DNA of 30,586 nucleotides from Candidatus Fermentibacterota bacterium. Its GTDB lineage: Bacteria > JAFGKV01. The stretch is from positions 1 through 30,586 of the forward strand of contig JAFGKV010000017.1 in assembly GCA_016928395.1 (NCBI GenBank), given 5' to 3'. Made by a program: the position numbers and the translations under genes. The notes beneath the pieces were generated by a model, which saw only the letters and a program-made list of their open reading frames with translations, did not search any database and was not told where the DNA came from. Below, one piece after another: positions 5,168-30,586 of the stretch; position 1 is the first letter of the stretch, and every line of letters starts with the position of its first letter.

Positions 5168-6091
5168 GTGAAGGCTTTGTCCGCTTTCGTGACGGTAGTG
5201 CTCGCCGTCGGGCTGGTCGCCCACAGCCGGGCCAGCGAGATGTCCATCGAACCGGGAGACGTGCTTTCCATCACCGTGCAGGGCCAAGACGCATATACCA
5301 GAGTCGTCACGGTGAACTCCAAGGGAATGATCGAATACCCGTTCATGAGCAATGTGCCGGTCTCGGGGATGTCGACGGGGCAGCTATCCGAGTTCATTAC
5401 GTACAAGCTTGCCAGCGTGGTGCCGCGACCCGTGGTGCTGATCTCCATACCTCAAGCCTACATGATCCAGGTGAGCGTCCTGGGTCAGGTGAACAACCCC
5501 GGAGTTGTGCAGCTCTCGACACAGTCATCGGTACAGGAAGCCATTCAAAAGGCCGGGGGCGGGACGGGCATGGCCCGGCTGGACGGCATAAAGATCGTCC
5601 GGGAAGTCGAGGGAAACATACGCACGCAGATCGTGAACCTGCAGGAGTTCATGGCCACGGGCGACCCGAATCTGTTGTATCCCCTTCGAGATGGTGACAA
5701 GCTCATTGTGCCGGGAACGATCCAGGGCAACCGTGTGAACATCATGGGTGCGGTGGCGACCCCCGGCTTCTACTATATCTTCGAGAATGTCAGACTCCTT
5801 GACGTGATTACCAGGGCCGGCGGGTTCACCCCCAACGCGAAGAAGAACCAGGTCTGGATTGTGTCGACGACTTCGGGGGAATCGATCAGGCGCGCCGTCA
5901 ACGTCGACAAGTTCTTTAAGAGGGGCGATGCCGAATCCAATCCCGAGGTGTATGCCGGGGACAGCATCTTCGTCCCCGAGAAGGCCGAGGCTGTATTGAG
6001 CTGGGCGGGATTCGTCCAGTATGCCCGCGATATCACCCAGCTCCTCATCATCTACCTCACCATAGTGCAGATTGAGCGCTACAGTGACTAG
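5168..6091 (+). CDS. Wza-type polysaccharide export protein (OPX)
   Basis: A 307-residue outer-membrane polysaccharide export protein. A signal peptide covers about residues 1-22. The Poly_export domain follows (IEPGDVLSITVQGQD onward, about 27-100), then two SLBB-type segments (from QVSVLGQVNNPG at about 100, and from VNIMGAVATPGFYY at about 190). A C-terminal hydrophobic stretch (about 280-302) matches the position of the Wza membrane helix. There is no cysteine at the signal-peptide cleavage site, so it is not a lipoprotein as E. coli Wza is. The GTG start is supported by GGAGG at 5154-5158. It is the first gene of the cluster, 67 bp before its usual partner, the Wzc-like kinase. Confidence 0.92.
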   Translation: MKALSAFVTVVLAVGLVAHSRASEMSIEPGDVLSITVQGQDAYTRVVTVNSKGMIEYPFMSNVPVSGMSTGQLSEFITYKLASVVPRPVVLISIPQAYMIQVSVLGQVNNPGVVQLSTQSSVQEAIQKAGGGTGMARLDGIKIVREVEGNIRTQIVNLQEFMATGDPNLLYPLRDGDKLIVPGTIQGNRVNIMGAVATPGFYYIFENVRLLDVITRAGGFTPNAKKNQVWIVSTTSGESIRRAVNVDKFFKRGDAESNPEVYAGDSIFVPEKAEAVLSWAGFVQYARDITQLLIIYLTIVQIERYSD

Positions 6092-6158: not shown

Positions 6159-8357
6159 GTGCAGCCACAGGAGACCAAGTATCAAGACTATGTCGACCTC
6201 CTCTTCCGGCGGAAAGGTGTGGTCATTACTGCCTTCCTCGTCGTGCTGGGAGTCACCTCATATTTCGCGCTCACCAAGGCCGACGTGTACCAAAGTACGA
6301 CCGAGATCCTGATCGACATTCCCGAGATCCAGGCAAGTCCATGGGAGCTCGCCATCGGCGGCAAGAAGGTCCGGTCCATTGATTTCTACCGGGCCATCCT
6401 TGAGAGTCAGCCATTTCTGAAGAAGGTCGCCCAGAAGGCCTACGAGGATGAGCTTTCCAGTGAGACATCCAACCTCACCTTGGACGCTGCGCTGTACCGG
6501 GTCGTCGGGAGGATCGGCTTCACTCCACAACGGCACGAGGGGTTCTACAGCCTCTCTGCCATCGCCAACGATCCCGACGAGGCCTTTGCGCTGGCTGACG
6601 CCGCCAAGGATATCTTCCAGGAGCAGTGCGATGTACTGGTGCGCCAGGATTCCCAGAAGCTGGTCGACTATGTGAGCGATCAGATCGAGGCGGTCAGCGA
6701 ACAGCTGGCCCAGTCCACTCATGATCTCGAGACATTCCAGCGTCAGCTCGGCGAAGTCCGGCTGGAGGAAAACCAGACCGTGGTCAGCGAGCTGGCCAGC
6801 TACCAGCAGCGTCAGAGCGAGGCCGCCAATCAGAAGGCGACCGTGCGGGGTGAACTAGCCAGCGTACGCGGCCAGTACTTGGCGCTGGATGCACGGATAA
6901 GGCCCAGTGGCCCCACCGGCAACACACGCCTGTCCCAGCTGCAAAACCAGCTTGCCCAGATCGATACCGATTTGGAGCGACTCCGCCTCACCCGGGAGCC
7001 TGATGATCCCGAAGTTCGCCAGTTACGCCGGGACCGCGAGAAGCTATCACGATCCATCGTGCAGGAGTCAATGTCTGGGGCAAGCAGCGGGTTAAACCCC
7101 TCCGCGGTTGCCGCGTGGCAGCAGCTTCAGGAGCGCGTGGGTCAGTTGGAGGCCGAACTGGACAAGCTAGAGCGGCAGGAACGTTTCTACCGCAACGAGA
7201 TCGTTCGCTTTCAGCGCGAGCACCCCGATCTTTTCCGTCAAACCATCGAGTTGGCACGGCTGCGGCGGGTGGTTGACACCCACAACAAGGCCATCAACTT
7301 CCTCGTGGAGGAACGCGAGAAGGCTCGCATCAAGGGGGCGACCGAGACGGCGGGCATCAAGATCATCGACAATCCCCGCAGGCCCGTTGCCCCTCTTCCG
7401 TCCCGCACGAAGACCTACATTCTGTTCGGCGCGGTGATCGGTATTCTTCTGGGGGTCGGTTCAGCGTATGCCTTGGAGTACTTCGACAACTCCATCCGCA
7501 CCGCCGAAGAGGTCCAGCGGTCCGTGGGCTTGCCGGTTCTGGGAACCATACCCCAGATCCGAACGGGCAATCGTGCCACGGGAACATATGCGGGCAATGT
7601 GTTCGGCATCGGCGAGGGAGCGGGAACCGCCGACGACACGATGAAGATGAGCGAGAAGATCATCACCCACTTCGCCCCCAAGGATCCCATCAGCGAGGCG
7701 TACCGAACCCTGCGCACCAACATTCAGTTCGCCCGCCTCGACACCCGGATCCGGAGCATGCTGGTGTCCAGCGCGGGGCCGAAAGAGGGCAAATCGCTGA
7801 CTGTCATCAACTTGGCCACCACCTTCGCCCAAATGGGCGAGAAGGTCCTAGTGGTGGATGCGGACATGCGGCGTCCGACCCAGCATCACCTGTTTGGTAT
7901 CGATCGCGATCCAGGGCTGACAACCTTATTGAGCCGACAGGATCTCACGCTTCGCGACATCATTCGTACCACCGAGGTGGAGAATCTCTTTGTCATCCCT
8001 GGAGGAAGCTCCGCCCCGAATCCCGCCGAGTTGCTGGGATCGGCGCGCATGGAGGCCCTCATTGCCGAGATGATGGAGGAGTTCGGGATGGTGGTGTTTG
8101 ACACACCGCCAGTAGTAGCCGTGACTGACGCACCGCTCCTGAGCCGCAAGGTCGACGGCGTGCTGCTGGTATGCCGGTGGGGCCAGACCGATCGGCAGCT
8201 TCTCATGCATGCGGTAGATTTGATGCGCAAGGTGGGCGCCAGCATGGTGGGGGCGGTGATGAACAACATCGATGTGTACCACCGGTACGGCTCCTACGGC
8301 CACTACTATCACTACTATTACTATAGTAGCGACGCGAAGCCTGGGGTGTCCACGTGA
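6159..8357 (+). CDS. Wzc-like polysaccharide co-polymerase / tyrosine autokinase
   Basis: A 732-residue inner-membrane protein that sets chain length and controls export through tyrosine autophosphorylation. The order is: N-terminal Wzz segment with TM1 (about 20-38), a long periplasmic Gln/Glu/Arg-rich coiled coil (about 160-400), TM2 (about 417-437), then the cytoplasmic BY-kinase with Walker A in GPKEGKS (about 540), Walker A' VVDADMRRP (about 565-573) and Walker B VVFDTPP (about 643). The tail around 705-724 holds nine tyrosines in about 20 residues, the autophosphorylation cluster. The GTG start has GAGGG at 6148-6152. The kinase is fused to the Wzz part, as in Proteobacteria, and I see no cognate low-molecular-weight phosphatase in the window. 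The 3' end overlaps the next gene by 4 bp. Confidence 0.94.
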   Translation: MQPQETKYQDYVDLLFRRKGVVITAFLVVLGVTSYFALTKADVYQSTTEILIDIPEIQASPWELAIGGKKVRSIDFYRAILESQPFLKKVAQKAYEDELSSETSNLTLDAALYRVVGRIGFTPQRHEGFYSLSAIANDPDEAFALADAAKDIFQEQCDVLVRQDSQKLVDYVSDQIEAVSEQLAQSTHDLETFQRQLGEVRLEENQTVVSELASYQQRQSEAANQKATVRGELASVRGQYLALDARIRPSGPTGNTRLSQLQNQLAQIDTDLERLRLTREPDDPEVRQLRRDREKLSRSIVQESMSGASSGLNPSAVAAWQQLQERVGQLEAELDKLERQERFYRNEIVRFQREHPDLFRQTIELARLRRVVDTHNKAINFLVEEREKARIKGATETAGIKIIDNPRRPVAPLPSRTKTYILFGAVIGILLGVGSAYALEYFDNSIRTAEEVQRSVGLPVLGTIPQIRTGNRATGTYAGNVFGIGEGAGTADDTMKMSEKIITHFAPKDPISEAYRTLRTNIQFARLDTRIRSMLVSSAGPKEGKSLTVINLATTFAQMGEKVLVVDADMRRPTQHHLFGIDRDPGLTTLLSRQDLTLRDIIRTTEVENLFVIPGGSSAPNPAELLGSARMEALIAEMMEEFGMVVFDTPPVVAVTDAPLLSRKVDGVLLVCRWGQTDRQLLMHAVDLMRKVGASMVGAVMNNIDVYHRYGSYGHYYHYYYYSSDAKPGVST

Positions 8358-9259
8358 GTGAAGAGCGTTGGATCCCCGACGGTGTCTCAATACTGATCCC
8401 TGCCTTCAATGAGGAAGACGGGATCGGGCCCACCATAGAGAGCGTGCAGCAAGCCCTGACACAAATCGACCTCCCCAGCGAGATCATCGTGGTTGACGAC
8501 GGAAGTACTGATCACACCGTCGAATGCGCCTCCCGGTACGAGGGCGTGCGGATCGTGCGCCATCGCCGAAACCGTGGCGTAGGGATCTCGCGGAACACCG
8601 GCATCCTGGCCGCACGCTTTCAGGCCGTAGGTATGCTGGATGCCGACGGCACCTACGCTGTGGACTCCCTGCCCGCCTTGGTGGAAGGCCTGGGCGAGCA
8701 TCACATGACTGTGGGGGCCCGCGTCGGCCGCAATGTCGCCCGCGACTGGGCCCGCATGATTCCCAAATGGATTATCCTCAGGCTTGCGTGCTACATCAGC
8801 GGCCAGAGAATCCCTGACCTGAACTCCGGCCTCAGGCTCTTCCGCAAGGACTCCGCGCTGCGCTTCTTCCCCATTCTACCCCGAGGGCACTCCTGGGTAT
8901 CGACCATTACCCTGGCGATGATGAGTAACGGCATGGACGTGCAGTTCGTTCCGATTGACTACTACAAGCGGATTGGCAAGTCCACGTTCCATCCGGTTCG
9001 CGATACCTACAACTACATCATGGTAATCGTCAGAACCGTCATGTACTTCGATCCGCTCAAGGTGTTTTTTCCGGCGGGGCTCGTTCTTCTTCTCGCAGGT
9101 ATCGCCAAGCTCGTGTTCGATCTTGTGAAGTTCAACGACATCAAGGAGAGCGACGTCATCCTCATCGTCGCCGCGCTCTTGGTGCTGTTCCAGGGCCTTC
9201 TGGCCGATCTCATCGTGGCGAGGACAAAACTCCGAGTGGGTGAGGGAGGGACTCGCTGA
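8354..9259 (+). CDS. Family 2 glycosyltransferase, membrane-anchored
   Basis: A 301-residue GT2 enzyme of the dolichol/undecaprenyl-phosphate sugar transferase type. The GT-A fold starts with SILIPAFNEED, followed by IIVVDDGSTDHT and the DxD-type LDADGTYAVDSLP. Two C-terminal membrane helices (about 235-257 and 270-292) resemble GtrB/ArnC-like enzymes that make polyprenyl-phosphate-linked sugars at the inner membrane. The sugar donor cannot be deduced. The GTG start lies in a GTGA overlap with the stop of the Wzc-like gene, and the 3' end shares one base with the next ATG (TGATG), so the genes are translationally coupled. Confidence 0.9.
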   Translation: MSEERWIPDGVSILIPAFNEEDGIGPTIESVQQALTQIDLPSEIIVVDDGSTDHTVECASRYEGVRIVRHRRNRGVGISRNTGILAARFQAVGMLDADGTYAVDSLPALVEGLGEHHMTVGARVGRNVARDWARMIPKWIILRLACYISGQRIPDLNSGLRLFRKDSALRFFPILPRGHSWVSTITLAMMSNGMDVQFVPIDYYKRIGKSTFHPVRDTYNYIMVIVRTVMYFDPLKVFFPAGLVLLLAGIAKLVFDLVKFNDIKESDVILIVAALLVLFQGLLADLIVARTKLRVGEGGTR

Positions 9260-10383
9260 TGGCAACAGTCTTGGTGACTGGAGGCGCCGGATTCATCGGC
9301 TCCCACATCGTCGACGCACTCATTGCCCGGGGCCACCAGGTCCGGGTGTTGGACAGTCTTGCGCCCCAAGTACACGGCTCGTCCGCCGCGCCTCCCGCCT
9401 ACCTGAACCCCGCGGCGGTGTTCTACCGGGGCCGTATCGAGGATCATGAGGCCCTGTCGGCCGCACTGCCGGGAGTTGACGTGGTGTTCCATGAGGCCGC
9501 CATCGTCGGAGTTGGGCAATCCATGTACGAAGTCCAGCGATATGTGGATGGCAATACCGGGGCCACTGCGGCATTCCTGGACTACCTTGTGCATCACCCG
9601 GAGGTCCGCCCCAAGAAGTTGGTGGTAGCCTCGTCCATGTCGATCTACGGAGAGGGCGCGTATGTGGACAGTGCCGGTATGCCGCTCTACCCTCGTCTGA
9701 GATCCCGGTCGCAGCTTGAGACCCGGGCATGGGAGGTCGTGGACGAGAGGGGCCTCGAGGCGACACCCTCCCCAACTTCCGAAGATAAGCCACTGTACCC
9801 CACGTCAATTTACGCGATAACGAAACGCGACCACGAGGAGATGTGCTTAGCCGTCGGATACGCCTACCGGATACCCACCGTCGCGCTTCGGTACTTCAAT
9901 GTCTACGGCCCTCGCCAGGCCCTCTCCAACCCCTACACAGGCGTCGGGGCAATCTTCAGCGCCCGGCTCCTCAACAATAAGCCGCCCTTGGTTTTTGAGG
10001 ATGGCCGTCAGACCCGCGATTTCGTCCATGTGTCTGACATCGTCCAGGCCAACCTCCGTGCCATGGAGACCGACGCTGCCGACTACCTCGCCGTGAATGT
10101 AGGCACCGGCACTCCCACCTCGGTGCTCCAGGTGGCATCCCTTCTGGCAGATCATCTGGGCTATGAAGGCACGCCGGTAGTCCTGGGGAAGTTCCGGGAA
10201 GGCGACATCCGGCATTGCTTTGCCGATATCTCACGAGCCCGGCATCTGCTCGGTTACGCTCCTTTGGTATCCATGAGCGGGGGAATACCCGAGCTGGTCC
10301 GATGGGTGAGCTCGCAGGAGGGTGTGATGGACCATACGGATCACGCCGCAGATGAGCTGAGGAAGTGGGGGTTGACGGAGTAG
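9259..10383 (+). CDS. SDR-family NAD-dependent nucleotide-sugar epimerase
   Basis: A 374-residue extended short-chain dehydrogenase. The NAD-binding motif GGAGFIGSH is at 8-16, the catalytic serine lies in ASSMSIYGEG and the catalytic Tyr/Lys pair in SIYAITKRDHEE. The stretches RYFNVYGPRQALSNPYTGV and FVHVSDIVQAN resemble dTDP-L-rhamnose 4-epimerase (WbiB-like) more than GalE, but the substrate is an inference. It supplies an activated sugar for the glycan. GGGAGGG lies shortly upstream of the ATG. It overlaps the following glycosyltransferase gene by 19 bp. Confidence 0.9.
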   Translation: MATVLVTGGAGFIGSHIVDALIARGHQVRVLDSLAPQVHGSSAAPPAYLNPAAVFYRGRIEDHEALSAALPGVDVVFHEAAIVGVGQSMYEVQRYVDGNTGATAAFLDYLVHHPEVRPKKLVVASSMSIYGEGAYVDSAGMPLYPRLRSRSQLETRAWEVVDERGLEATPSPTSEDKPLYPTSIYAITKRDHEEMCLAVGYAYRIPTVALRYFNVYGPRQALSNPYTGVGAIFSARLLNNKPPLVFEDGRQTRDFVHVSDIVQANLRAMETDAADYLAVNVGTGTPTSVLQVASLLADHLGYEGTPVVLGKFREGDIRHCFADISRARHLLGYAPLVSMSGGIPELVRWVSSQEGVMDHTDHAADELRKWGLTE

Positions 10384-11579
10384 ACGGCGGCCGACCCTTG
10401 CGGGTAGTCTTTTTCGGAAGCTACGACACCCACCGGCCCCGTTTTCGTATCCTCCGTAGGGGTCTGTCGCTTTCGGGCGATTCGATTGCCGAATGTCACG
10501 CATCGGTCTGGGGAAGCCTCGAAGACCGCAGCCACATACGAACGCCCATCGGCTACCTTCTCCCAGCAATCAAGTGGTGCTCGGCGCTTCCCCGTTTGAT
10601 GCGGGCATACCATGCGCTGCCTCCCCACGATGTCGTCCTCGTGCCGTATTTGGGACCCGGCGATGCTGTCATCGCCAAGCATGTAGCCCGCCGGAGCCGC
10701 GTACCGGTCGTGTACGATCCGTATGTGTCCCTGTATGAAACGGTCATCGGTGACCGGCAGATGGCCGGACCGCGCAGCGTCACAGGTCGTGCAGTCAGGA
10801 TGCTGGACGTATGGGCCTTTCGCGCCGCCGACGCCATTCTGGTCGACACTTCCTCTCATGGCAATCTCATGGCCGAGCAGCTGGATCTACCGATGCCTCG
10901 CCGCTTCGTGGTGCCGGTGGGCGCCGAGTCGGAGGTCTTCACCCGAAGCCCGCTGCCGCCACGGAGCCACCTTCACCGCGTCCTCTTCTACGGCTCGATG
11001 ATCCCACTCCACGGCATCGAGACCATCATCCGGGCCATCAGGGAGCTGGGGGACAGCCTGACCAGATTCACCTTGATCGGAACGGGCCAGGAGTATGCCA
11101 AAGCCAGGGCCCTGGCCAAGGAGTTATCCGCCGACCGCTCGATTGACTGGGTGGACCGGGTGACCTACGGACGGTTGCCTGGGGAAATCGAACAGGCAGA
11201 TGTCTGTCTTGGCATTTTCGGTGGCTCACGGAAGGCGCACTCTGTGGTGCCCAACAAGGTGTTCCAGGCCCTGGCCTGCGGACGACCCGTGATCACGGCG
11301 GATACCCCCGCCATACGGGAATGGTTCACCGACGGGGAAGACTGTATCTTGGTGCCACCTGGCGACCATCGTGGGCTGGCCTATGCTATCGGCCGAGTCT
11401 TGGCTGACAGCACGCTGCAGGAGCAACTCGCCCAGAAGGGATACGAGCTATTCACGCGCGCCTTCGCGCCGACGGCCGTCGGCGCTACGGCCCATAGAGC
11501 CCTGGAAGCGGTCGTGTCAGGCCACCGGCCTGCCTCCCCGGATTGCCCTGGTGAACAGGGTGGAACGCAGGAGAGGTGA
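10365..11579 (+). CDS. Family 4 (GT-B) glycosyltransferase
   Basis: A 404-residue GT-B glycosyltransferase, cytosolic face. The N-terminal Rossmann half begins RVVFFGSYDTHRPR. The C-terminal donor half shows VLFYGSMIPLHGIETII, FTLIGTGQEY and the nucleotide-sugar pocket VVPNKVFQALACGRPVITA. The likely start is the GTG at 10365 inside the 3' end of the epimerase gene; a TTG at 10398 just before the beta strand is a possible alternative with a poorer ribosome site. It is the last gene of the tightly coupled five-gene unit. The last ~25 residues are Pro/Gly-rich and unlike the fold, a normal disordered end. Confidence 0.88.
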   Translation: MGVDGVDGGRPLRVVFFGSYDTHRPRFRILRRGLSLSGDSIAECHASVWGSLEDRSHIRTPIGYLLPAIKWCSALPRLMRAYHALPPHDVVLVPYLGPGDAVIAKHVARRSRVPVVYDPYVSLYETVIGDRQMAGPRSVTGRAVRMLDVWAFRAADAILVDTSSHGNLMAEQLDLPMPRRFVVPVGAESEVFTRSPLPPRSHLHRVLFYGSMIPLHGIETIIRAIRELGDSLTRFTLIGTGQEYAKARALAKELSADRSIDWVDRVTYGRLPGEIEQADVCLGIFGGSRKAHSVVPNKVFQALACGRPVITADTPAIREWFTDGEDCILVPPGDHRGLAYAIGRVLADSTLQEQLAQKGYELFTRAFAPTAVGATAHRALEAVVSGHRPASPDCPGEQGGTQER

Positions 11580-12921: not shown

Positions 12922-14262
12922 ATGACGATGGCGCGAAGGGCAGGAGGAGGGATCGTCGTGATCGGCATCGACGGCGTTCCCCGCACACTCGTGCGAAGAC
13001 TGATTGATGAAGGGGTGATGCCGTGCATGAAGGCCCTGATGGGTGGCCGCGAACCCGCAGAACTGCACAGCGTTTATCCCACAGTATCATCCGCCGCGTG
13101 GACGAGTTTTATGACAGGGCTGCAGCCGCCGCGCCACGGGATCATGGGGTTCGTCAATAAGACCCAGGGAGGATACGGCATCGTGTTCCCGCGGCGGGAG
13201 CATATCCGCGGACCTTTGCTTCAGGAAATCGTGAGCACGGCAGGAGGATCGGTGTTCTCCATGGGGGTGCCGGTAACCTATCCCCCCATGGAACTTCACG
13301 GCGTGGTGATCTCCTGTTTCCTGTCTCCCGGCCTTGACAAGGCCGTGTGGCCCCCCGAGGAACTCCGCACGCTGCGGGATCTTGGCTATGTGATAGACCC
13401 GGATCCTCTCGTGGCCCACCAGGACCGCGCCCGGTTCATGGAACTTGTGCTGCTGGGGCTCCAGAAGCGTATCGACACCATCAAATACTACTTCCGCCGT
13501 CAGAACTGGGATCTTTTCTTGGCCCATGTCATGGAAACCGATCGTCTACATCACTTCTTCTGGCGTGACTACGCGGATCCTTCTGCTCCATTTCACTCCG
13601 ATTTCTTCCGGTTCTATCGCGAGCTGGACCGTCTCTTCGGTTGGCTGGGAGATGAACTGGGAGACTCCAAGAGACTTGTCGTATTGTCCGACCACGGCTT
13701 CTGCGGGTTGGACTGGGAAGTCAACGTGGGCAAGTGGATGGTCCAGCAGGGCCTCACTGAGCTTCGCGCACAGACTCCCGGACCGCCGCTGGCCAATATC
13801 GAGTGGAGCAGAACCACACTCTATAGCATGATACCCGGGCGCGTATGGGTGAATCAACAAGGCCGCGAGCCCGAAGGGATCGTGGCACCGGCCGACGTTG
13901 GTGCCGTGCTGGATGGGTTGCGTCAGGAGGCCATGGCGTGGCGTGATCCCCACGGGGTGCCGGTCTTGGAGAAAGTGCTGATACGAGAGGAGATCCCTGG
14001 GTTCACCCCGGGCCTCGATGCACCCGATGCATTGTTGGTCCCGCGGCGGGGGATGGATCTGAAGGATGGGGTGCTTCGCCCGGACGTGTTCGAGCGCAAG
14101 GTGCTGAGCGGCATGCACACCTATGACGACGCCCTGCTGTTTTTCGGGCCAGCCCCGATCCGGGCCGATCGTACGCCGTGGATCGGCGACATGGCGCCGA
14201 CCTTGCTTTCCGTCAGCGGGCTGGACGTCCCGGTAGGCCTCGACGGCGTTTCGCTTGTCTGA
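12922..14262 (+). CDS. Alkaline phosphatase superfamily protein 1 (type I phosphodiesterase-like)
   Basis: A 446-residue protein of the phosphodiesterase/nucleotide-pyrophosphatase branch. Visible metal-site elements are Asp17 in VIGIDG, the nucleophile position Ser56 in PTVSSAAWTSFMTG, a D-x3-H in ETDRLHH (about 205), DHG in LSDHGF (about 256) and a late histidine in SGMHTYDD. A threonine is usual at the nucleophile position, so serine is worth noting. No signal peptide or membrane helix is evident, so cytoplasmic action is possible. AAGGAG at 12910-12915 supports the start. Substrate unknown; the context suggests phosphate- or nucleotide-linked sugars or lipids. A 28-bp gap separates it from the paralogous gene. 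Confidence 0.86.
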   Translation: MTMARRAGGGIVVIGIDGVPRTLVRRLIDEGVMPCMKALMGGREPAELHSVYPTVSSAAWTSFMTGLQPPRHGIMGFVNKTQGGYGIVFPRREHIRGPLLQEIVSTAGGSVFSMGVPVTYPPMELHGVVISCFLSPGLDKAVWPPEELRTLRDLGYVIDPDPLVAHQDRARFMELVLLGLQKRIDTIKYYFRRQNWDLFLAHVMETDRLHHFFWRDYADPSAPFHSDFFRFYRELDRLFGWLGDELGDSKRLVVLSDHGFCGLDWEVNVGKWMVQQGLTELRAQTPGPPLANIEWSRTTLYSMIPGRVWVNQQGREPEGIVAPADVGAVLDGLRQEAMAWRDPHGVPVLEKVLIREEIPGFTPGLDAPDALLVPRRGMDLKDGVLRPDVFERKVLSGMHTYDDALLFFGPAPIRADRTPWIGDMAPTLLSVSGLDVPVGLDGVSLV

Positions 14263-14290
14263 TCTTCCACCTCGTACAAGGAGCCCCGGC

Positions 14291-15937
14291 ATGGCATCCA
14301 AGTGCATCCTTCTGGGCCTCGATGGCGCCACCTACGACCTTCTGGATCCGTGGATGGAGGAAGGAATCCTTCCTCATCTGAAGTCACTTCTCTCCCGGGG
14401 CGCCAAGGGCGTGCTCCGTTCGACCGACCCTCCGACGACCCCCCCAGCATGGACATCGGTTCTCACGGGCGTCAATCCTGGCAAGCATGGCATCTTCGAC
14501 TTCCGTGATTCCTATCACCGCGACCCACGTCGGCCTCTGGTGAGTTCCCGCAGTATGAGAGCGCCGCGGATCTGGCAGATCCTGAACGCCGCGGGGCTTC
14601 GCGCGGCCATCATGAACGTGCCCATTACCTTTCCCCCCGAACCGTTGGATGGGTTCATGATCTCGGGCATGATGACCCCCAACGATGAGGCCGACTACAC
14701 CTATCCGGCCGAACTCAAGAGCCGCCTGAACGATATGGTCGGCCACTACGTGGTTGATGTGGACATACCCCGCTATGACGTGGAAATCTGGAGCGACGCC
14801 GTCGTATTCTTCGATGACGTGGAGCGCGCCTTCACGAGACGATCCCAGGCGTTCCTGCGGCTTCTGGAGGAAGAGCAATGGGATTTTTTTATGGTGGTCT
14901 TCGTCGTCCTTGATCGCATCCAACACCTGTTCTGGAAGTACATGGTGCCGGAGTTCGACCACTACCATACGGAACTTGGCGCGCGGGTCCGTGAACGGGT
15001 GCGGGCAATATACACAAAGGTGGATGAGACCATAGGCGCCGTCATGGATCGGCTGGATAGTTCTACGACTCTGCTGCTCTGTTCCGATCACGGCTTTGGC
15101 GGCACCAAGGCTTGGTTCAATGTAAACCGGTGGCTAGAGCGGGAGGGATTCCTGACTCTCGTGCCGTCGGTCCGGTGGAAGAAACGCCTCTTCTACACAC
15201 TGATGTCGTGGAACGACTCGCCCTTAGTGAAGGCTTTGGTGCCCAAGTCACTGCAGAGCATGGTCAGGGGCCACATCCGCGCCGGTCGCTCCACCTTCAA
15301 GACCGATGTCTTGGCCACGGTAAACTGGGCGCGGACCACCGCCTTCTTCGCCAGTATCCCCAGCCAAGGCATCTATATCAACCGGGAGCTGGTGCCCGAG
15401 GGCAAGCGGGAGGCCCTCCGCACGCGTATCCGCCAGCGTCTTCTGGCACTAGAGGACCCCTCCACCGGGCGGCCCTTTATCGATCGAGTCATGTTTCCGG
15501 AAGAGATCTATCAAGGTCCAGAGACTGCCTACGCCCCGGACATTCTGTTCGTCGCCCAAGACTATGGCTATTTGGGACGGCAGCTCTTCGGCACGTCGGC
15601 CGTCATCGAGACGAGCCTTCATACTCCCAATGGCTTCCACCGGATCAGCGGCATCTTCGGCGCCTATGGCCCGCACATCGTTGCCGGAACTGCCGTAGAC
15701 GGCGCGGAGATACATGACATCACCGCCACGGTGCTCTATTCCATGGGAGAGCCGATACCGCCGTACATGGATGGAAAGGTACTCTCAGACATCTTCACGC
15801 CCGAGCACCGTCATGCGCACCCGATACGCAGGGGAAGTAACGCCCAGTACGAAACGGGGGATCGCGCCCACGAGTACTCGGACAATGAGCAACAGGAGCT
15901 GGAGGAGAGGCTCAGGAGTCTGGGCTACCTGGGCTGA
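14291..15937 (+). CDS. Alkaline phosphatase superfamily protein 2 (type I phosphodiesterase-like)
   Basis: A 548-residue paralogue of the preceding protein. It has Asp11 in LLGLDG, the nucleophile position Thr50 in TTPPAWTSVLTG, D-x3-H in LDRIQH (about 208-213), DHG in CSDHGFGG (about 266) and late histidines in TSLHTPNGFH. It is about 100 residues longer than its neighbour, chiefly after the DHG motif. It ends in a charged helix plus LRSLGYLG, a tail similar to that of the 1062-residue fusion protein downstream. The start at 14291 follows AAGGAG at 14278-14283; an in-frame ATG 12 codons earlier overlaps the previous gene. No signal peptide is evident. Substrate unknown. Confidence 0.87.
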   Translation: MASKCILLGLDGATYDLLDPWMEEGILPHLKSLLSRGAKGVLRSTDPPTTPPAWTSVLTGVNPGKHGIFDFRDSYHRDPRRPLVSSRSMRAPRIWQILNAAGLRAAIMNVPITFPPEPLDGFMISGMMTPNDEADYTYPAELKSRLNDMVGHYVVDVDIPRYDVEIWSDAVVFFDDVERAFTRRSQAFLRLLEEEQWDFFMVVFVVLDRIQHLFWKYMVPEFDHYHTELGARVRERVRAIYTKVDETIGAVMDRLDSSTTLLLCSDHGFGGTKAWFNVNRWLEREGFLTLVPSVRWKKRLFYTLMSWNDSPLVKALVPKSLQSMVRGHIRAGRSTFKTDVLATVNWARTTAFFASIPSQGIYINRELVPEGKREALRTRIRQRLLALEDPSTGRPFIDRVMFPEEIYQGPETAYAPDILFVAQDYGYLGRQLFGTSAVIETSLHTPNGFHRISGIFGAYGPHIVAGTAVDGAEIHDITATVLYSMGEPIPPYMDGKVLSDIFTPEHRHAHPIRRGSNAQYETGDRAHEYSDNEQQELEERLRSLGYLG

Positions 15938-16177: not shown

Positions 16178-19100
16178 ATGACGCAATCTAGACGACGAAG
16201 CCCCCTCAGAAGCGCCCTCACCACAGTCGCAAAGATTGTCCTCACGGTGGCGGCCTTCTACGTACTCCTCAATCACAAGATCACCGACGAAAGCAACGTA
16301 GGGCTGCTGCTTCCTGACGGGTCCACCGAACAGATCGCCGTGGGCGACAGCCTGGCGTTGGCACAGGGAAATGCCGTGGTTGTCTCGTCCCGCCAACTGG
16401 CGGTGGACGGGACGATCATCCATATTCATGCTGGCGACTTCCTGCAGCGTTCCGACGGCCTCGAGGCCCAAGTGCTTCAGGAGGGCTCCACCACGACGTA
16501 TCGCGCCATCCGCGCCTACTTGCCTCGCATTCATGCCCGCACATTCTGGCTGTTTCTACTCATCGGGGCTGTGGTGAAGGCTGTCGGCATTCTCGCGAGC
16601 ATGCTGCGATGGCACATTCTCCTGTTGGGGCAACGCATTCGGTTCCCATTTGGTCACCTGGCGGGCACCTTTCTCATTGGCCGTTTCTTGGGCACCTTCC
16701 TTCCCTCCACCGTCGGGCTGGACGGGTACACCCTGTATGATGCTGCTCGCCACAGTCGCCGGACGGTGGAAGTCGCCGCCGCGAAGTTCATTGAGAAGAT
16801 CATGGGGATCGTGGGGATCCTCCTTACCTTTCTCGTCACCTTGCCCTTGGGCTACGCGGTGTTCCAGCACAATCTCGGGCAGAATGCCGCCCGGGTAACC
16901 ACCATCACGGTCGTCATCTCCTTCGCGGCCATCGGCGCGTTCTTCTTCGTGCTCCTGCGGCCTCAGATCGTCGACCCATTCATCAGACTCCTCCCCAAGG
17001 AGAGCAAACCCCGAAAGCTTCTGCGACACATCCGGGAAGCCGCCGGGGCCTATGACCATCGCAAAGGCATTCTGGTTGGCGCCGCATTCCTAAGCTTTCT
17101 CGTTCACTTCCTTACCGCCGTTATGTACTACTTCACGGCCCGGGCCATCGGCGCCACCGGTGCGAATGTCTGGGAAATCAGCTTCGCCAGTTCCATTCAG
17201 ATTTTCGCCACGGTCATAAGCCCCTTCACCATCGCGGGTGAAGGTGTCCGCGAGATCGTCACCTATGTGCTGTTGGGCGGTATGATGGGAGGTGAAGCGA
17301 CCATTCTGTTCAGCGCGCTGGGATTCTGGGCCGCCGAGGCTCTGACGCTGGCAGGTGCGGTGGTCTGGCTGGCGCGGCGGCGGGGCTATGCACCCCGATA
17401 CGTCGAAGTCGAAGGGATCCGCCTCGACCCTGCTGCGCCGGTGCCCGTTGTGCCCCGTCCTGCATCTTCTGCGCCCCGCGTGCCAGCCGGCCGGCGGATC
17501 GTGAGCGGGCTCATGGGAGGGCTGTTCGGCGGCGCGTTCCTTGGCTTCCTTGAAGCCCTGCTGGTGATACGGCTGGCAAATCAGGACGAAATGTGGGTTC
17601 TGCCCTACGCCTTCTTGCTCTATGGGCTTTGCGGGGCGGCCATGGGCGCCGTGGCGGGGGTCCTGATTGAGCCTGTCGCCCATGTTTCCGGACGAAGGGA
17701 GGTCCGAGGCACCACCTTCGCCTTGGCCTTCGCCGGTATCTTCGCCTTGATGGGTGCCGTGGTCACCAGATTCCGGCTGGTGCGGGATCTGTTCCGGGAG
17801 CGCCCGCCCCAGGGCATGCTTCTGCCGCTGGCCGTGCTATGCGCCGCCGTGCTGGTGGGAGTAGTTCTTTTCGTTCTGATGAGGAAACTAGCCCGGCGGG
17901 GAGGCCCGCTGGCGCCGCTGCGCGAACCACTCACCGGGCCCTTGGTCTATGCCGGGCTGCTGGGCGCCCTCCTGCTGGTAGCCTGGTGGGGCGAATCTGA
18001 GGCGCCCGCAGGCTCCGTCGACCCTGCGGCCCAGGCCCGAGTGGCGAGCCGGCCCAATGTGCTCCTCATCGTGGTGGATACCATGCGGGCAGACCGGCTG
18101 GGATGCTACGGCTATCCCCACGACACAAGTCCCGCGCTGGACGCCATGGCGGCCGAAGGAATTGTGTTCAAACACACGGTTGCCCAGGCATCGTGGACGA
18201 AGCCTTCCATCGCCACCATCCTGACCGGCCTATATCCGTCGACTCATCAGGCCACTAGTAAGGTCAGCACACTGCCGGACGCCGTTGTCACTATGGCCGA
18301 GGTCTTCCACGCCCAGGGATACTACACGGCGGGATTCGCTGACAATATCAACATCGCCCCCATGTTCGGATTCGGCCAGGGCTTCTGTGAGTATCGTTAC
18401 CTCGCCCCGGCCTACTTCTTCGGCGCTTCAGAGTCCGCATCGAAGCTCACTCTCTACGACCTGGTGCGGCTTGTGCGGGAGCGGTTTCTGTCCAAGGCGA
18501 AGCATGTCGACCACTACTACCGCGACGCCGAGTACGTGACGGATGAAGCCATCGGCTGGCTCAAGAGGAACAAGGATCGGCCCTTCTTCCTGTTCGTCCA
18601 TTACATGGATCCCCATGACCCGTATTTCGTGCACCCCTATAATGGCGTGGGGTATGCCCGCGTGTCCACGCCCAATCCTCCGCTGGAGATGGCGCCGAAG
18701 CTCTCTACGGTCTATGACCAGGAAATCGCGTTCTGGGATCGCAGCTTCGCCGACCTGATGGCCCATCTCCGATCCGAAGGGATTCTGGATTCCACCATCG
18801 TAGTCGTGACTGCAGATCATGGTGAGGAGTTTGCCGAGCACGGTGGATGGTGGCACGGGACCACGCTGTACGATGTAGAAATCCTGGTGCCGCTCGTGAT
18901 CCGGATGCCCCATGCGGTCTCGGCCGGCACGGTGATCACTCCGCAAGTCCGGCTGATGGATGTGGCGCCCACCTTGCTGGCGAGCTGCGGGCTTCCCGTG
19001 CCCGCGGCCATGCAGGGCCAGCCCTTAAACTGGGAACGTTCCGACTTCAGAGGTATTGATACCGTGTTCGCCGAGGAAGATTTCGAGGGCAATCTCCTGA

Positions 19101-19366
19101 CCGCAGTCAGGACCCCCGACTGGAAACTCATCCGGGCCAATCAACACAATCCGCGCGGCCTCGATCCGTTGGAACTCTATAATGTTGCCGCTGATCCCAG
19201 GGAACGTGTCTCGCGTGTGAAGGATAACCCCGATGCTGTGCGAGCACTCCAGGCAACCATCGACGACATTCAGCATGAGGCGATGAAGGTTGCGGTGCAA
19301 AGCCAGACCCACGAGTTGGATGCCGACACCAAGAAGCAACTCAGGGCCTTGGGGTACATGGAGTAG
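16178..19366 (+). CDS. Flippase-like (MprF-type TM) domain fused to a sulfatase-fold hydrolase/transferase
   Basis: A 1062-residue membrane protein with four parts. TM1 (about 16-32) is followed by an unassigned, probably beta-rich insert (about 35-118). Residues about 120-400 match the LPG_synthase_TM/UPF0104 family found in MprF and AglD, with GRFLGTFLPSTVGLDGYTLY (168-187) and FTIAGEGVREIVTYVLLGG (350-368). A second bundle of roughly four to six helices spans about 440-605. From about 625 there is a sulfatase-fold domain: NVLLIVVDTMRADRLGCYGY, the nucleophile region SWTKPSIATILTG, and TADHGEEFAEHGGWWHGTTLY. Thr674 occupies the position where sulfatases carry the formylglycine cysteine, so a phosphodiesterase or phospho-group transferase is more likely than a true sulfatase. 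The last domain should face the periplasm. GAAAGG at 16164-16169 supports the ATG. The 240-bp gap upstream (15938-16177) shows no clear promoter. Confidence 0.88.
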   Translation: MTQSRRRSPLRSALTTVAKIVLTVAAFYVLLNHKITDESNVGLLLPDGSTEQIAVGDSLALAQGNAVVVSSRQLAVDGTIIHIHAGDFLQRSDGLEAQVLQEGSTTTYRAIRAYLPRIHARTFWLFLLIGAVVKAVGILASMLRWHILLLGQRIRFPFGHLAGTFLIGRFLGTFLPSTVGLDGYTLYDAARHSRRTVEVAAAKFIEKIMGIVGILLTFLVTLPLGYAVFQHNLGQNAARVTTITVVISFAAIGAFFFVLLRPQIVDPFIRLLPKESKPRKLLRHIREAAGAYDHRKGILVGAAFLSFLVHFLTAVMYYFTARAIGATGANVWEISFASSIQIFATVISPFTIAGEGVREIVTYVLLGGMMGGEATILFSALGFWAAEALTLAGAVVWLARRRGYAPRYVEVEGIRLDPAAPVPVVPRPASSAPRVPAGRRIVSGLMGGLFGGAFLGFLEALLVIRLANQDEMWVLPYAFLLYGLCGAAMGAVAGVLIEPVAHVSGRREVRGTTFALAFAGIFALMGAVVTRFRLVRDLFRERPPQGMLLPLAVLCAAVLVGVVLFVLMRKLARRGGPLAPLREPLTGPLVYAGLLGALLLVAWWGESEAPAGSVDPAAQARVASRPNVLLIVVDTMRADRLGCYGYPHDTSPALDAMAAEGIVFKHTVAQASWTKPSIATILTGLYPSTHQATSKVSTLPDAVVTMAEVFHAQGYYTAGFADNINIAPMFGFGQGFCEYRYLAPAYFFGASESASKLTLYDLVRLVRERFLSKAKHVDHYYRDAEYVTDEAIGWLKRNKDRPFFLFVHYMDPHDPYFVHPYNGVGYARVSTPNPPLEMAPKLSTVYDQEIAFWDRSFADLMAHLRSEGILDSTIVVVTADHGEEFAEHGGWWHGTTLYDVEILVPLVIRMPHAVSAGTVITPQVRLMDVAPTLLASCGLPVPAAMQGQPLNWERSDFRGIDTVFAEEDFEGNLLTAVRTPDWKLIRANQHNPRGLDPLELYNVAADPRERVSRVKDNPDAVRALQATIDDIQHEAMKVAVQSQTHELDADTKKQLRALGYME

Positions 19367-19484: not shown

Positions 19485-19491
19485 AAGGAGG
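19485..19491 (+). promoter_or_regulatory. Shine-Dalgarno that fixes the YbhB start
   Basis: AAGGAGG lies five bases before the ATG at 19497, giving a 154-residue product of normal family length. In-frame upstream ATGs have much weaker sites. Confidence 0.65.
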
Positions 19492-19496
19492 GCTTT

Positions 19497-19961
19497 ATGC
19501 GCATACTCGTCACCAGCCCCGCATTTATGGAAAGCGCCTCGATTCCCACCACGCACACGTGCGATGGAGAGAATCTCTCGCCGCCGGTGGCATGGAGCAC
19601 AATCCCTGAGGGCACACAAAGCATCGCCCTGCTCTGCGATGATCCTGATGCGCCACTCAAGACGTGGGTCCATTGGGTTGTCTACAATGTGCCGCCTTCG
19701 GCCCAGGGCCTTCCCCAGGGCGTGGCCCACGCAGAGGCCCTTCCTGACGGTTCCCGCCAAGGAATCAATGATTTCGGGCGCGTGGGGTATGGCGGTCCGT
19801 GCCCGCCCCAGGGCTCAACCCACCGGTACTTCTTCCGGGTCTATGCGCTGGATTGCACGCTCTCCGTGGGAAATCGAGCGACGAAGAGGAGTGTAGAGAA
19901 GGCCATGGAGGGCCACATCGTGGCCTCAGGGGTTCTGCTGGGGACCTACCGGCGCGCGTAA
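19497..19961 (+). CDS. YbhB/YbcL family Raf-kinase-inhibitor-like protein (PEBP)
   Basis: A 154-residue phosphatidylethanolamine-binding-protein fold. Both ligand-site signatures are present: CDDPDAPLKTWVHWVVYNVP and YGGPCPPQGSTHRYFFRVYALD. Bacterial members bind small phosphorylated or anionic ligands and their physiological role is poorly defined. The start follows a strong AAGGAGG. The open frame extends upstream through a hydrophobic stretch ending in a cysteine (ATG near 19412), so a longer, exported form is conceivable. It is the last plus-strand gene before a convergent hairpin and lies 130 bp after the fusion protein, so its link to the cluster is loose. Confidence 0.92.
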   Translation: MRILVTSPAFMESASIPTTHTCDGENLSPPVAWSTIPEGTQSIALLCDDPDAPLKTWVHWVVYNVPPSAQGLPQGVAHAEALPDGSRQGINDFGRVGYGGPCPPQGSTHRYFFRVYALDCTLSVGNRATKRSVEKAMEGHIVASGVLLGTYRRA

Positions 19962-28083: not shown

Positions 28084-30586
28084 CTACTCCTGAATCTCGA
28101 AGTCAAACTCGCCCACCGGCGGGGAAGCGGGGGACTCATTGCCCGCAGCATCCGTGGCCGTGACGCGATACGTGTAGTTCACAGCCACATCACCCAACCC
28201 CTCGGTGATCTGGACGCTGGTGCCCGCCGGCGTGGCCCACGGCGTCATGCCCTGGACACTGAAGAAGGCCGACAAGCTGCGGTACACAGAGTAGTAATCG
28301 ACACCGACATTGTCGGTGGCGGGGCTCCAGCTCAGCGTACCGTCATTGGCCAACATCGGATTCGAAGGTGTAGTGGGTGCGAGTATGTCGCCTCCCGCCA
28401 GCCAAGACAGCGAGCGGGAGATGACGGTTCCGATATTGTCGGGATTCGACGCAAGAGCTGGGAATGCCTCCAGCGGCACGCCGAAGAACATCGTCTTGAA
28501 GGACGCGGGGCCCTCCCCGGCATACCGGATCACCACAGAGCTATTGCTGCCTTGCATTCTGAACACGGTGACCGCCCCGATTCCCGGGGTGATCGCATCC
28601 GGCATGACATCCAGCCCGGTGGGGTAGGACAGTGTCGCGCTGATCCCATCACCGACGGGGTCACCGGTCGTGCCATCCACTGCCGAGCCGCTTATGTTCG
28701 CCTGAGAGCTGGTGATGCGCAGATAGGAAGTCGTCAAAGGTGCCGAAGGATAGTTCGGCGCGTAGTTCTCCGCCGAGAGCAGCAGCGAGCCCTCCTGGTT
28801 CAGATAGGCAATCAGGTTGGCCTGATTGTCGGGCGTGATGCCGGTCGAGCCCTGGTCGCCCGCGGTCCAGATCACGGTGTGATGGGCCAGCAGGGTATCC
28901 AACGGCACCACGGCCTTGCCTGGATCGAAGGTGTTCCACCGGGTGTGGGCGTACCCCAGTTCGAGCAGGGCGTCGATGATACGGGTTTCGGTGATCTCCG
29001 CATCGGAATCCACCACCAGAAGGTCGGCCTGGCCAATCAGGAGGTTCACGACGCCCGAGACACTATGGAATCCAGCATTGGAGCTTATCTGGAGTGAGAG
29101 CTGCGCTCCGTAGGGTATCGGGCAGTCACCATCCGCGGTGAGGGTGAACGTGGGGCTGATGGTTTGAGCACCTGAAGGGATGTCTCCCAGAGCCTGGGTT
29201 GTCGGGCCAATGATCGTCAGGTAGGGATCCGATTCACTAATCGCAAGCTGCGTACCCAAGGCGGTACCGGATCCGCCATTGACCACGGTGACGGTGAGGC
29301 CCACCGTTTCGCCCGGATCAAGCCGGCCATTGCCGTTGCCTTCCGTGTCGTCTATCTGCCAGCCAGCCTCGGCCAGATCAGGAGCATGAACCGTGAGGGG
29401 AAAGTCTGCCTCCCACGAGTCAAGACCAGAGACGATGTCCAGATGGAAGGGCACTACCGTATTGTCCGCCAGCGATCCCACCTCGAACACGTACGGCTCA
29501 CCCGGCAGCGCCGTCGCTCCCGGCGCCATGTCGCCGTATCCCTGGCTCGGCGCCGTCACCGCGATCTGACCATTCGTCGTGCTTAAGGTGCCCACCACCC
29601 CATACGCCGTCTCGATGCCGACATTCTTCAGCTCGATGTTCAGCGACACCGTCTCGCCGATATCCGCCTGCCCATCGCCCAGCACCGTGGTGCTCTGGTA
29701 GATCACATACGGCCCCGTCGGCGGGATTACCTCGATATCCGCCTGGATCGGCTCCTTGTTGTACCCCGTGATCGTCAGCTTCACCGTGCCCGGCACATTC
29801 AGCGGCTCGTTCAACGTCACGTTCACCGTGCCCGCGCCGTCCGTATATCCCGAACCAAGCCATTCGCCTTCCGCCGAGACTCCCACCAACGCCCCCTCCA
29901 CCCCCGCTACCGTCACCGGAATCGAACTCGTCCCCACCAACACCGCCGTCGGATACGTCGCCGCCATGGCTGCCGGACTGTCCGTCCGCATCTGCACCGA
30001 ACAGTCCCCGAAAATGATCCACGTGTTGAAATGACTTGTGCCGTCATACCCTCCGTTGTAGTGCTCCAGCATCGCCATGCCCCCGATGAACAGCGTGCCG
30101 CCTACCGTATTGTACCGGTCGCTCACCAGACTGTCCACAAACCCCTGCTGCCCGTATTGCGGGGGAGTCCAGCCCTGGCTTATGCTGGACATGTAGGCAG
30201 CCAAAGCTCCCCGCGGCTGGCCCCCGCTCTGCGCCCGGAGCCACGCCTCGCCGAAACACGTCGTCGTGCTGAAGTTCCCATTGTCGCATGCCACCGAGTG
30301 TATCACCGGCAGCATCCAGTAGTTCGACAACGCATTCACATTCGTGTTCGAAAACCCGGTCGTACCCCATGACGTCGACGAGCCATGCCCCATGTACACC
30401 ACCAGGCTCCGCCCCTCGTTCAACGCCGCCGTCACCATCGCCGCCGTCGCCGAAGGATCGTAGATCTGATCCATCTCCGTGTACGTGTAGTTCAATAGCT
30501 TTGTCCGAAACCCGTTTATCCACTGATAGTCCGGCGGGCTCCCCTGGTTGCTGGCAATCCCTGTCGCCTTGTGATACCATGCAGAA
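28084..30586 (-). CDS. Gingipain-like C25 cysteine protease, 3' part (5' end outside window)
   Basis: About 833 residues are visible; the frame stays open to the right edge, so the signal peptide, propeptide and N-terminal catalytic half are missing. The catalytic His lies in MGHGSSTSWG (codon 30387-30385) and the catalytic Cys in HSVACDNGNF (codon 30288-30286), both closely matching gingipain R. The AYMSSISQGW and NTWIIFGDCSVQMRT segments also fit. Next is a C25_C Ig-like domain ending in TGYNKEPI, two CARDB-like domains (LGDGQADIGETV and GNGRLDPGETV), a ThuA/flavodoxin-like domain (ADLLVVDSDAE onward, about 29035-28400) and a final FN3-like domain ending GEFDFEIQE. Substrate specificity cannot be inferred. 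A secreted or surface protease is the firm reading; the first in-frame start-like codon at 30495 is not the real start. Confidence 0.92.
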   Translation of the reverse strand, partial: SAWYHKATGIASNQGSPPDYQWINGFRTKLLNYTYTEMDQIYDPSATAAMVTAALNEGRSLVVYMGHGSSTSWGTTGFSNTNVNALSNYWMLPVIHSVACDNGNFSTTTCFGEAWLRAQSGGQPRGALAAYMSSISQGWTPPQYGQQGFVDSLVSDRYNTVGGTLFIGGMAMLEHYNGGYDGTSHFNTWIIFGDCSVQMRTDSPAAMAATYPTAVLVGTSSIPVTVAGVEGALVGVSAEGEWLGSGYTDGAGTVNVTLNEPLNVPGTVKLTITGYNKEPIQADIEVIPPTGPYVIYQSTTVLGDGQADIGETVSLNIELKNVGIETAYGVVGTLSTTNGQIAVTAPSQGYGDMAPGATALPGEPYVFEVGSLADNTVVPFHLDIVSGLDSWEADFPLTVHAPDLAEAGWQIDDTEGNGNGRLDPGETVGLTVTVVNGGSGTALGTQLAISESDPYLTIIGPTTQALGDIPSGAQTISPTFTLTADGDCPIPYGAQLSLQISSNAGFHSVSGVVNLLIGQADLLVVDSDAEITETRIIDALLELGYAHTRWNTFDPGKAVVPLDTLLAHHTVIWTAGDQGSTGITPDNQANLIAYLNQEGSLLLSAENYAPNYPSAPLTTSYLRITSSQANISGSAVDGTTGDPVGDGISATLSYPTGLDVMPDAITPGIGAVTVFRMQGSNSSVVIRYAGEGPASFKTMFFGVPLEAFPALASNPDNIGTVISRSLSWLAGGDILAPTTPSNPMLANDGTLSWSPATDNVGVDYYSVYRSLSAFFSVQGMTPWATPAGTSVQITEGLGDVAVNYTYRVTATDAAGNESPASPPVGEFDFEIQE

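Follow-up and report, generated by a model that had tools for sequence, protein, structure and literature searches.

A UPF0104 flippase-type domain fused to a sulfatase-fold enzyme predicted to lie outside the membrane in Candidatus Fermentibacterota and other bacterial phyla

What does a cell do with a protein in which a membrane domain of the kind that flips lipids runs on, in the same chain, into a complete sulfatase-fold enzyme? Such a protein is encoded in the window, the stretch of 30,586 nucleotides from a Candidatus Fermentibacterota bacterium (contig JAFGKV010000017.1) that was analysed here. Its best domain match alone would label it simply 'sulfatase'. The reading that we prefer, at a probability of roughly one half, is an inner-membrane enzyme that flips a lipid and then transfers or cleaves its head group.

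Domain layout and membrane topology

The fusion gene occupies positions 16178–19366 of the forward strand as a single frame from ATG to stop, with no internal stop codon, and encodes 1062 amino acids. The chain begins with a predicted transmembrane helix (residues 9–31; 16202–16270), its N-terminus inside, and continues with an extracytoplasmic segment between helix 1 and helix 2 (residues 32–118; 16271–16531), for which the AlphaFold2 model shows beta strands at residues 34–106. These are followed by a UPF0104/LPG_synthase_TM flippase-type domain (residues 120–400; 16535–17377), a second membrane bundle of five helices without a Pfam family (residues 439–605; 17492–17992) and an alkaline-phosphatase/sulfatase-fold catalytic domain (residues 626–1062; 18053–19363), all on the forward strand. 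Pfam searches placed PF03706 (LPG_synthase_TM) at residues 125–383 (E = 3e-16, 60.2 bits against a cut-off of 33.4), PF00884 (Sulfatase) at 626–935 (E = 6e-48, 164.2 bits, above the cut-off) and SGSH_C at 887–1017, also above its cut-off. The model, built from an alignment of 32 relatives, has a mean pLDDT of 84.4 and exceeds 90 across most of the catalytic domain (an alignment of only seven rows gave 65.9), and its second-bundle helices span residues 439–467, 474–504, 510–538, 548–572 and 586–605.

The initial annotation had described one 1062-residue frame joining the flippase domain, the bundle and the sulfatase fold. The frame is indeed intact, the same fusion occurs in many assemblies, and the domain limits agree with Pfam and AlphaFold2 to within a few residues; the N-terminal helix and beta-rich ectodomain (residues 9–106) that precede the flippase domain had been overlooked. 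This N-terminal region is present in the phylum of the window and in G079/G221 and absent in G279/G142. A frameshift or assembly chimaera was ruled out because the same three-part frame recurs in many independent assemblies.

The proposed UPF0104/MprF-type identity of the first membrane domain was borne out by the profile match and by an intact polar core of the family. PF03706 scores above its curated cut-off in all 27 fusions scanned, and among 44 fused rows the core residues Asp182, Glu206 and Lys207 (Lys or Arg in the family core) are found in 41, 44 and 41, respectively, while Gly356, Arg358 and Glu359 of the GxRE motif (356–359) are found in 44, 43 and 44. Arg169 and His310 are signature residues specific to the flippase clade of the fusion. 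The modelled domain contains two broken-helix pairs (158–174/181–193 and 331–347/357–370), whose breaks coincide with TM3a-3b and TM7a-7b of Rhizobium tropici MprF (RtMprF; PMC8131360), as judged by helix order and not by superposition. A sequence profile of the membrane half matched no solved structure, and the fold matches listed by VIA and Foldseek are to the catalytic domain.

The second bundle was detected in every fusion tested, including Myxococcota-like ones outside its profile (E = 9e-17 to 3e-22), and, with a bundle profile made from fusions alone, in none of the unfused relatives tested. The idea that the bundle accompanies the catalytic domain in flippase-less paralogues, hinted at by G000:C3, which aligns from residue 480, was dropped because the fusion-only profile found no bundle in those proteins; earlier matches there were circular, the profile used for them having contained the same paralogues.

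Positive-inside charge counts and net charge predict, in agreement with the initial annotation, a periplasmic catalytic domain, on the side of the membrane away from the cytoplasm. In a set of 27 fusions, Lys/Arg is for the most part more frequent in the loops predicted to be cytoplasmic than in the outer ones, the catalytic domain carries a net charge of -23 (27 relatives), and in the charge-count topology a cytoplasmic linker (residues 400–438) followed by five helices puts this domain outside. However, the loop at 532–548, which contains invariant residues and is itself outside by charge count, is unusually Arg-rich and speaks against this placement.

The catalytic site

The predicted metal ligands of the catalytic domain are Asp634 (18077–18079), which aligns with a Glu in EptA, and the pair Asp880-His881 (18815–18820); the predicted nucleophile is Thr674 (18197–18199), at the formylglycine Cys position of sulfatases. 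All of these codons, like that of His893 (18854–18856), lie on the forward strand. In the window and 25 other fusions compared, Asp634, Thr674, His808, His813, Asp880, His881 and His893 are invariant. Profile alignment with E. coli K-12 proteins sets Thr674 against the Cys of the sulfatase-like YidJ and the Thr of EptA, and His893 against a Lys in YidJ and a His in EptA. The zinc ligands of Neisseria EptA are Glu240, Thr280, Asp452, His453, His383 and His465 (PMC10525099), and the spacing from 452 to 465 in that enzyme equals that from 880 to 893 in the fusion. The site accordingly shows the EptA-type pattern of a Thr nucleophile, Asp-His ligands and two further His residues, with Asp in place of Glu as the first ligand.

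Sequence and fold, each taken as a whole, bring the catalytic domain closer to S1 sulfatases and phosphonate monoester hydrolases than to EptA or LtaS. The closest fold is an S1 sulfatase (6hr5; Z = 44.1, rmsd 2.2 over 351 residues), and phosphonate monoester hydrolases reach a Z of about 37. Curated EptA models gave 17.7 to 32.4 bits against cut-offs of 561–660, and the lipoteichoic acid synthase model 10.9 bits against a cut-off of 970. Judged by its residues, the site is of a Thr-nucleophile, phospho-group type, set on an S1-sulfatase/phosphonate monoester hydrolase fold; the fusion may work like EptA and LtaS but is not a member of those families. The fold match, the predicted Thr674 nucleophile and the conserved metal ligands agree with the earlier description of a complete, metal-dependent enzyme of the sulfatase or phosphatase fold.

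A classical formylglycine-type S1 sulfatase is ruled out by the active-site residues. The C/S-x-P-x-R motif is missing, with Thr in every fusion at the formylglycine Cys/Ser position and no Arg at the CxPxR position; the sulfatase Lys that follows the DHG motif is His893 in all fusions; and the GKWH motif is not kept. The same substitutions weigh against sulfuryl chemistry of another kind, in which a sulfated lipid or glycan intermediate would be exported and its sulfate removed or transferred outside, with Thr674 replacing formylglycine. Closeness to S1 sulfatases speaks for this alternative, as do some of the gene neighbourhoods described below; taking both sides together, we regard it as unlikely.

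A second alternative concerns the reaction rather than the group involved. After flipping, the catalytic domain might do no more than trim or recycle a phosphodiester linked to a lipid, such as a used carrier lipid, with no transfer step. It would suit the likeness to phosphonate monoester hydrolases, the PF01663 similarity seen in all fusions scanned and the two further phosphodiesterase-like genes that adjoin the fusion. The fusions nevertheless keep the second-site histidines that serve transfer in EptA, with which hydrolysis would still be possible, and we consider hydrolysis as the sole activity improbable.

Two separate observations concern the catalytic domain at large: plasmid records gave partial matches only, to this domain, and the G000 genome holds over a dozen sulfatase-fold genes on many contigs, several of them on membrane proteins.

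Distribution, ancestry and gene neighbourhoods

Genome searches found the three-part protein in at least four bacterial phyla, at least three of them other than that of the window. In the window's own phylum all three genomes examined carry it, and two of these correspond to named records, one of Candidatus Eisenbacteria Prado127 (at 78% identity) and one of Candidatus Fermentibacteria CSMAG_2897 (at 65%). In the phylum of G279 and G142, the fusion was found in 58 of 68 genomes, one copy each, and in 37 of the 38 of good quality, with open frames of at least 900 residues in 51 genomes. The phylum of G079/G221 yielded two full copies and one cut copy in eight genomes, and a Myxococcota-like phylum yielded fusion-type frames in at least 35 of 187 genomes, together with 16 stand-alone close flippases. 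A thin sample across bacteria revealed the fusion in only a few other lineages; more were found in a denser sample around G627, whose locus has 70.7% G+C. The genome searches used the membrane half, and the catalytic half was read directly in 25 loci besides the window in one comparison and in 11 loci in another. Because the fusion is a single-copy gene in nearly all good genomes of one phylum and occurs in at least three other phyla, its function in the cell envelope is very probably a basic one.

The fused catalytic domains have a single origin: all 44 fall into one clade (support 0.999), apart from 14 unfused domains. The tree of flippase domains places 12 stand-alone proteins within the fused group, a pattern that fits one fusion followed by later losses of the catalytic part; repeated fusion could also have produced it. 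These stand-alone proteins (L122–L131, and L041 and L042 in G059 and G093) belong to the same clade, and most carry its signature residues. The idea of a split gene, with a stand-alone flippase beside a separate catalytic gene, was ruled out: in the stretches read, neither the ten Myxococcota-like stand-alone flippases nor the two in G059 and G093 have a catalytic domain of this type next to them. In L127, such a domain is found some 4.5 kb from the flippase.

Since 12 close stand-alone flippases have no adjoining catalytic domain in the stretches read, the flippase can work alone. Their persistence would fit a role for the catalytic domain that is mainly regulatory or structural, the flippase being the working part, by analogy with YejM/LapC of E. 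coli, a membrane protein that has the alkaline-phosphatase fold and carries a signal-transducer annotation. Yet the metal and nucleophile residues are fully conserved across phyla, unlike those of a decaying site, which makes this role very unlikely.

In the window, the fusion terminates a co-directional run of forward-strand genes. The run includes genes for a polysaccharide export protein of the SLBB/Wza type (5168–6091), an AAA/Wzc-like protein (6159–8357), a GT2 (8354–9259), a sugar epimerase/dehydratase (9259–10383) and a GT4 (10365–11579), an outer-membrane-type protein gene, and two genes for type I phosphodiesterase-like proteins (PF01663) without evident signal peptides, PDE-A (12922–14262) and PDE-B (14255–15937). 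These neighbours suggest a link to the export of a polysaccharide or glycolipid. G001 keeps the gene order from the Wzc-like gene through the fusion, and PDE-B adjoins the fusion in the window and in a second phylum. Elsewhere in the window, a gene of the PF01161 phosphatidylethanolamine-binding-protein family (YbhB type) follows closely after the fusion (19491–19961, forward strand, with an inferred start). On the reverse strand, 134–1648 encodes a GWxTD-domain protein (PF20094) adjoining an aminotransferase and a D-Ala-D-Ala ligase-type gene, and 28084–30585, reaching the window edge, encodes a large protein in which a C25 (gingipain-type) peptidase region is joined by its Ig-like domain.

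A different neighbourhood was found in G079, G221 and G292 (loci L039, L040 and L151), where the fusion belongs to an operon with the exact order PDE-A, ATP sulfurylase, PHP-domain gene, PDE-C, APS kinase, PDE-B, fusion. PDE-D comes next in G079 and G221; in G292 the contig stops within the fusion gene. The window retains PDE-A, PDE-B and the fusion in the same relative order. PAPS reductase (PF01507) was not found in these three genomes and was found in 14 of 14 controls; of the two sulfotransferase families searched, PF13469 and PF00685, neither was found in G079 or G221 (genomes 86–90% complete), and G292 has one PF00685 match. Of 22 loci in the phylum of G279, 9, spread over five families, have a PF13469 sulfotransferase gene no more than 3 kb from the fusion, against 0.085 expected from random independent placing, a figure that is only indicative as genomes within one phylum are related. 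The Myxococcota-like loci have GpsA, a FeoB-like gene and a Cys/Met-metabolism gene near the fusion.

These sulfation-linked neighbourhoods were not foreseen in the initial annotation, and plain phosphotransfer does not predict their presence in two phyla. They are the genomic evidence in favour of sulfuryl chemistry, against which stands the absence of sulfur-activation genes beside the fusion in the window and in the Myxococcota-like loci examined. A bolder version would make the fusion the step at which the product leaves through the membrane in a so far undescribed pathway for the sulfation of lipids or glycans. In it, alkaline-phosphatase-superfamily enzymes, namely the PF01663 proteins inside and the fused domain outside, would perform the sulfuryl transfer for which known sulfotransferases are responsible elsewhere. 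It draws on the operon of exact order with APS kinase in three genomes and on the absence of the tested PAPS-using families from G079 and G221, the two more complete of the three. We think it quite unlikely. Should the sulfur link hold, the fusion would also be a clue to a user of activated sulfate not known so far.

A proposed flip-then-process enzyme and its known counterparts

In the preferred reading, a flip followed by processing of the head group, the UPF0104 domain would move its substrate, a lipid or a glycan linked to one, into the outer leaflet, and the five-helix bundle would anchor the catalytic domain in the periplasm, where the conserved outward loop of the bundle (Phe532, Asp537 and Glu541) may help to hold the lipid head group. 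At a putative metal site formed by Asp634, Thr674, Asp880 and His881, plus His813 and His893, Thr674 would attack the phosphodiester of the delivered lipid to give a phospho-Thr intermediate, from which the group would pass to an envelope acceptor or to water. The two modules would then be coupled. Several observations speak against this reading: the catalytic domain is closer to S1 sulfatases than to EptA or LtaS, close flippases exist without such a domain beside them in the stretches read, sulfation-linked genes accompany the fusion in two phyla, the profile of the membrane half matched no solved structure, and one loop predicted outside is Arg-rich.

The initial annotation had named no characterised protein with this domain order, and no published description of it was found in the literature searched. 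The phosphoethanolamine transferases EptA/MCR resemble the fusion in having a five-helix bundle and a periplasmic alkaline-phosphatase-fold domain with a Thr nucleophile and the same pattern of metal ligands. LtaS likewise joins a five-helix bundle to an extracytoplasmic alkaline-phosphatase-fold domain with a Thr nucleophile and that ligand pattern. However, EptA and LtaS show weak sequence similarity to the fusion and have no flippase domain, and the fold of the fusion is nearer to S1 sulfatases. With S1 sulfatases and phosphonate monoester hydrolases it shares the fold and the C-terminal subdomain, but it differs from S1 sulfatases in lacking the formylglycine Cys/Ser and the CxPxR Arg, in having His893 for Lys and in being membrane-bound. 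Stand-alone UPF0104 flippases (YbhN, GpgF and the C-terminal domain of AglD) share the PF03706 family and its core residues with the fusion, which is set apart from them by its fused extracytoplasmic enzyme and the clade-specific Arg169 and His310.

MprF shares the overall plan: its UPF0104/PF03706 domain likewise leads into another membrane bundle and ends in an enzyme at the C-terminus; PaMprF has been described as a promiscuous scramblase (PMC11980842). The fusion was ruled out as an MprF family member by its missing synthase domain: Pfam found no match to PF09924/DUF2156 in it, the C-terminus being PF00884. The second bundle has five helices, in contrast to six (TM9-14) in MprF. The original picture of a flippase joined to an outside phosphatase-fold enzyme is supported in part, by the polar core, the Thr site and the predicted topology; the likeness to MprF holds only at the level of the plan. 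The MprF enzyme is a cytoplasmic GNAT-type aminoacyl-lipid synthase, and that of the fusion is a sulfatase-fold domain predicted outside. If the preferred reading is true, the fusion combines a flippase with an enzyme that acts on head groups at the outer face, all within a single polypeptide, as the mirror image of MprF, whose enzyme works inside.
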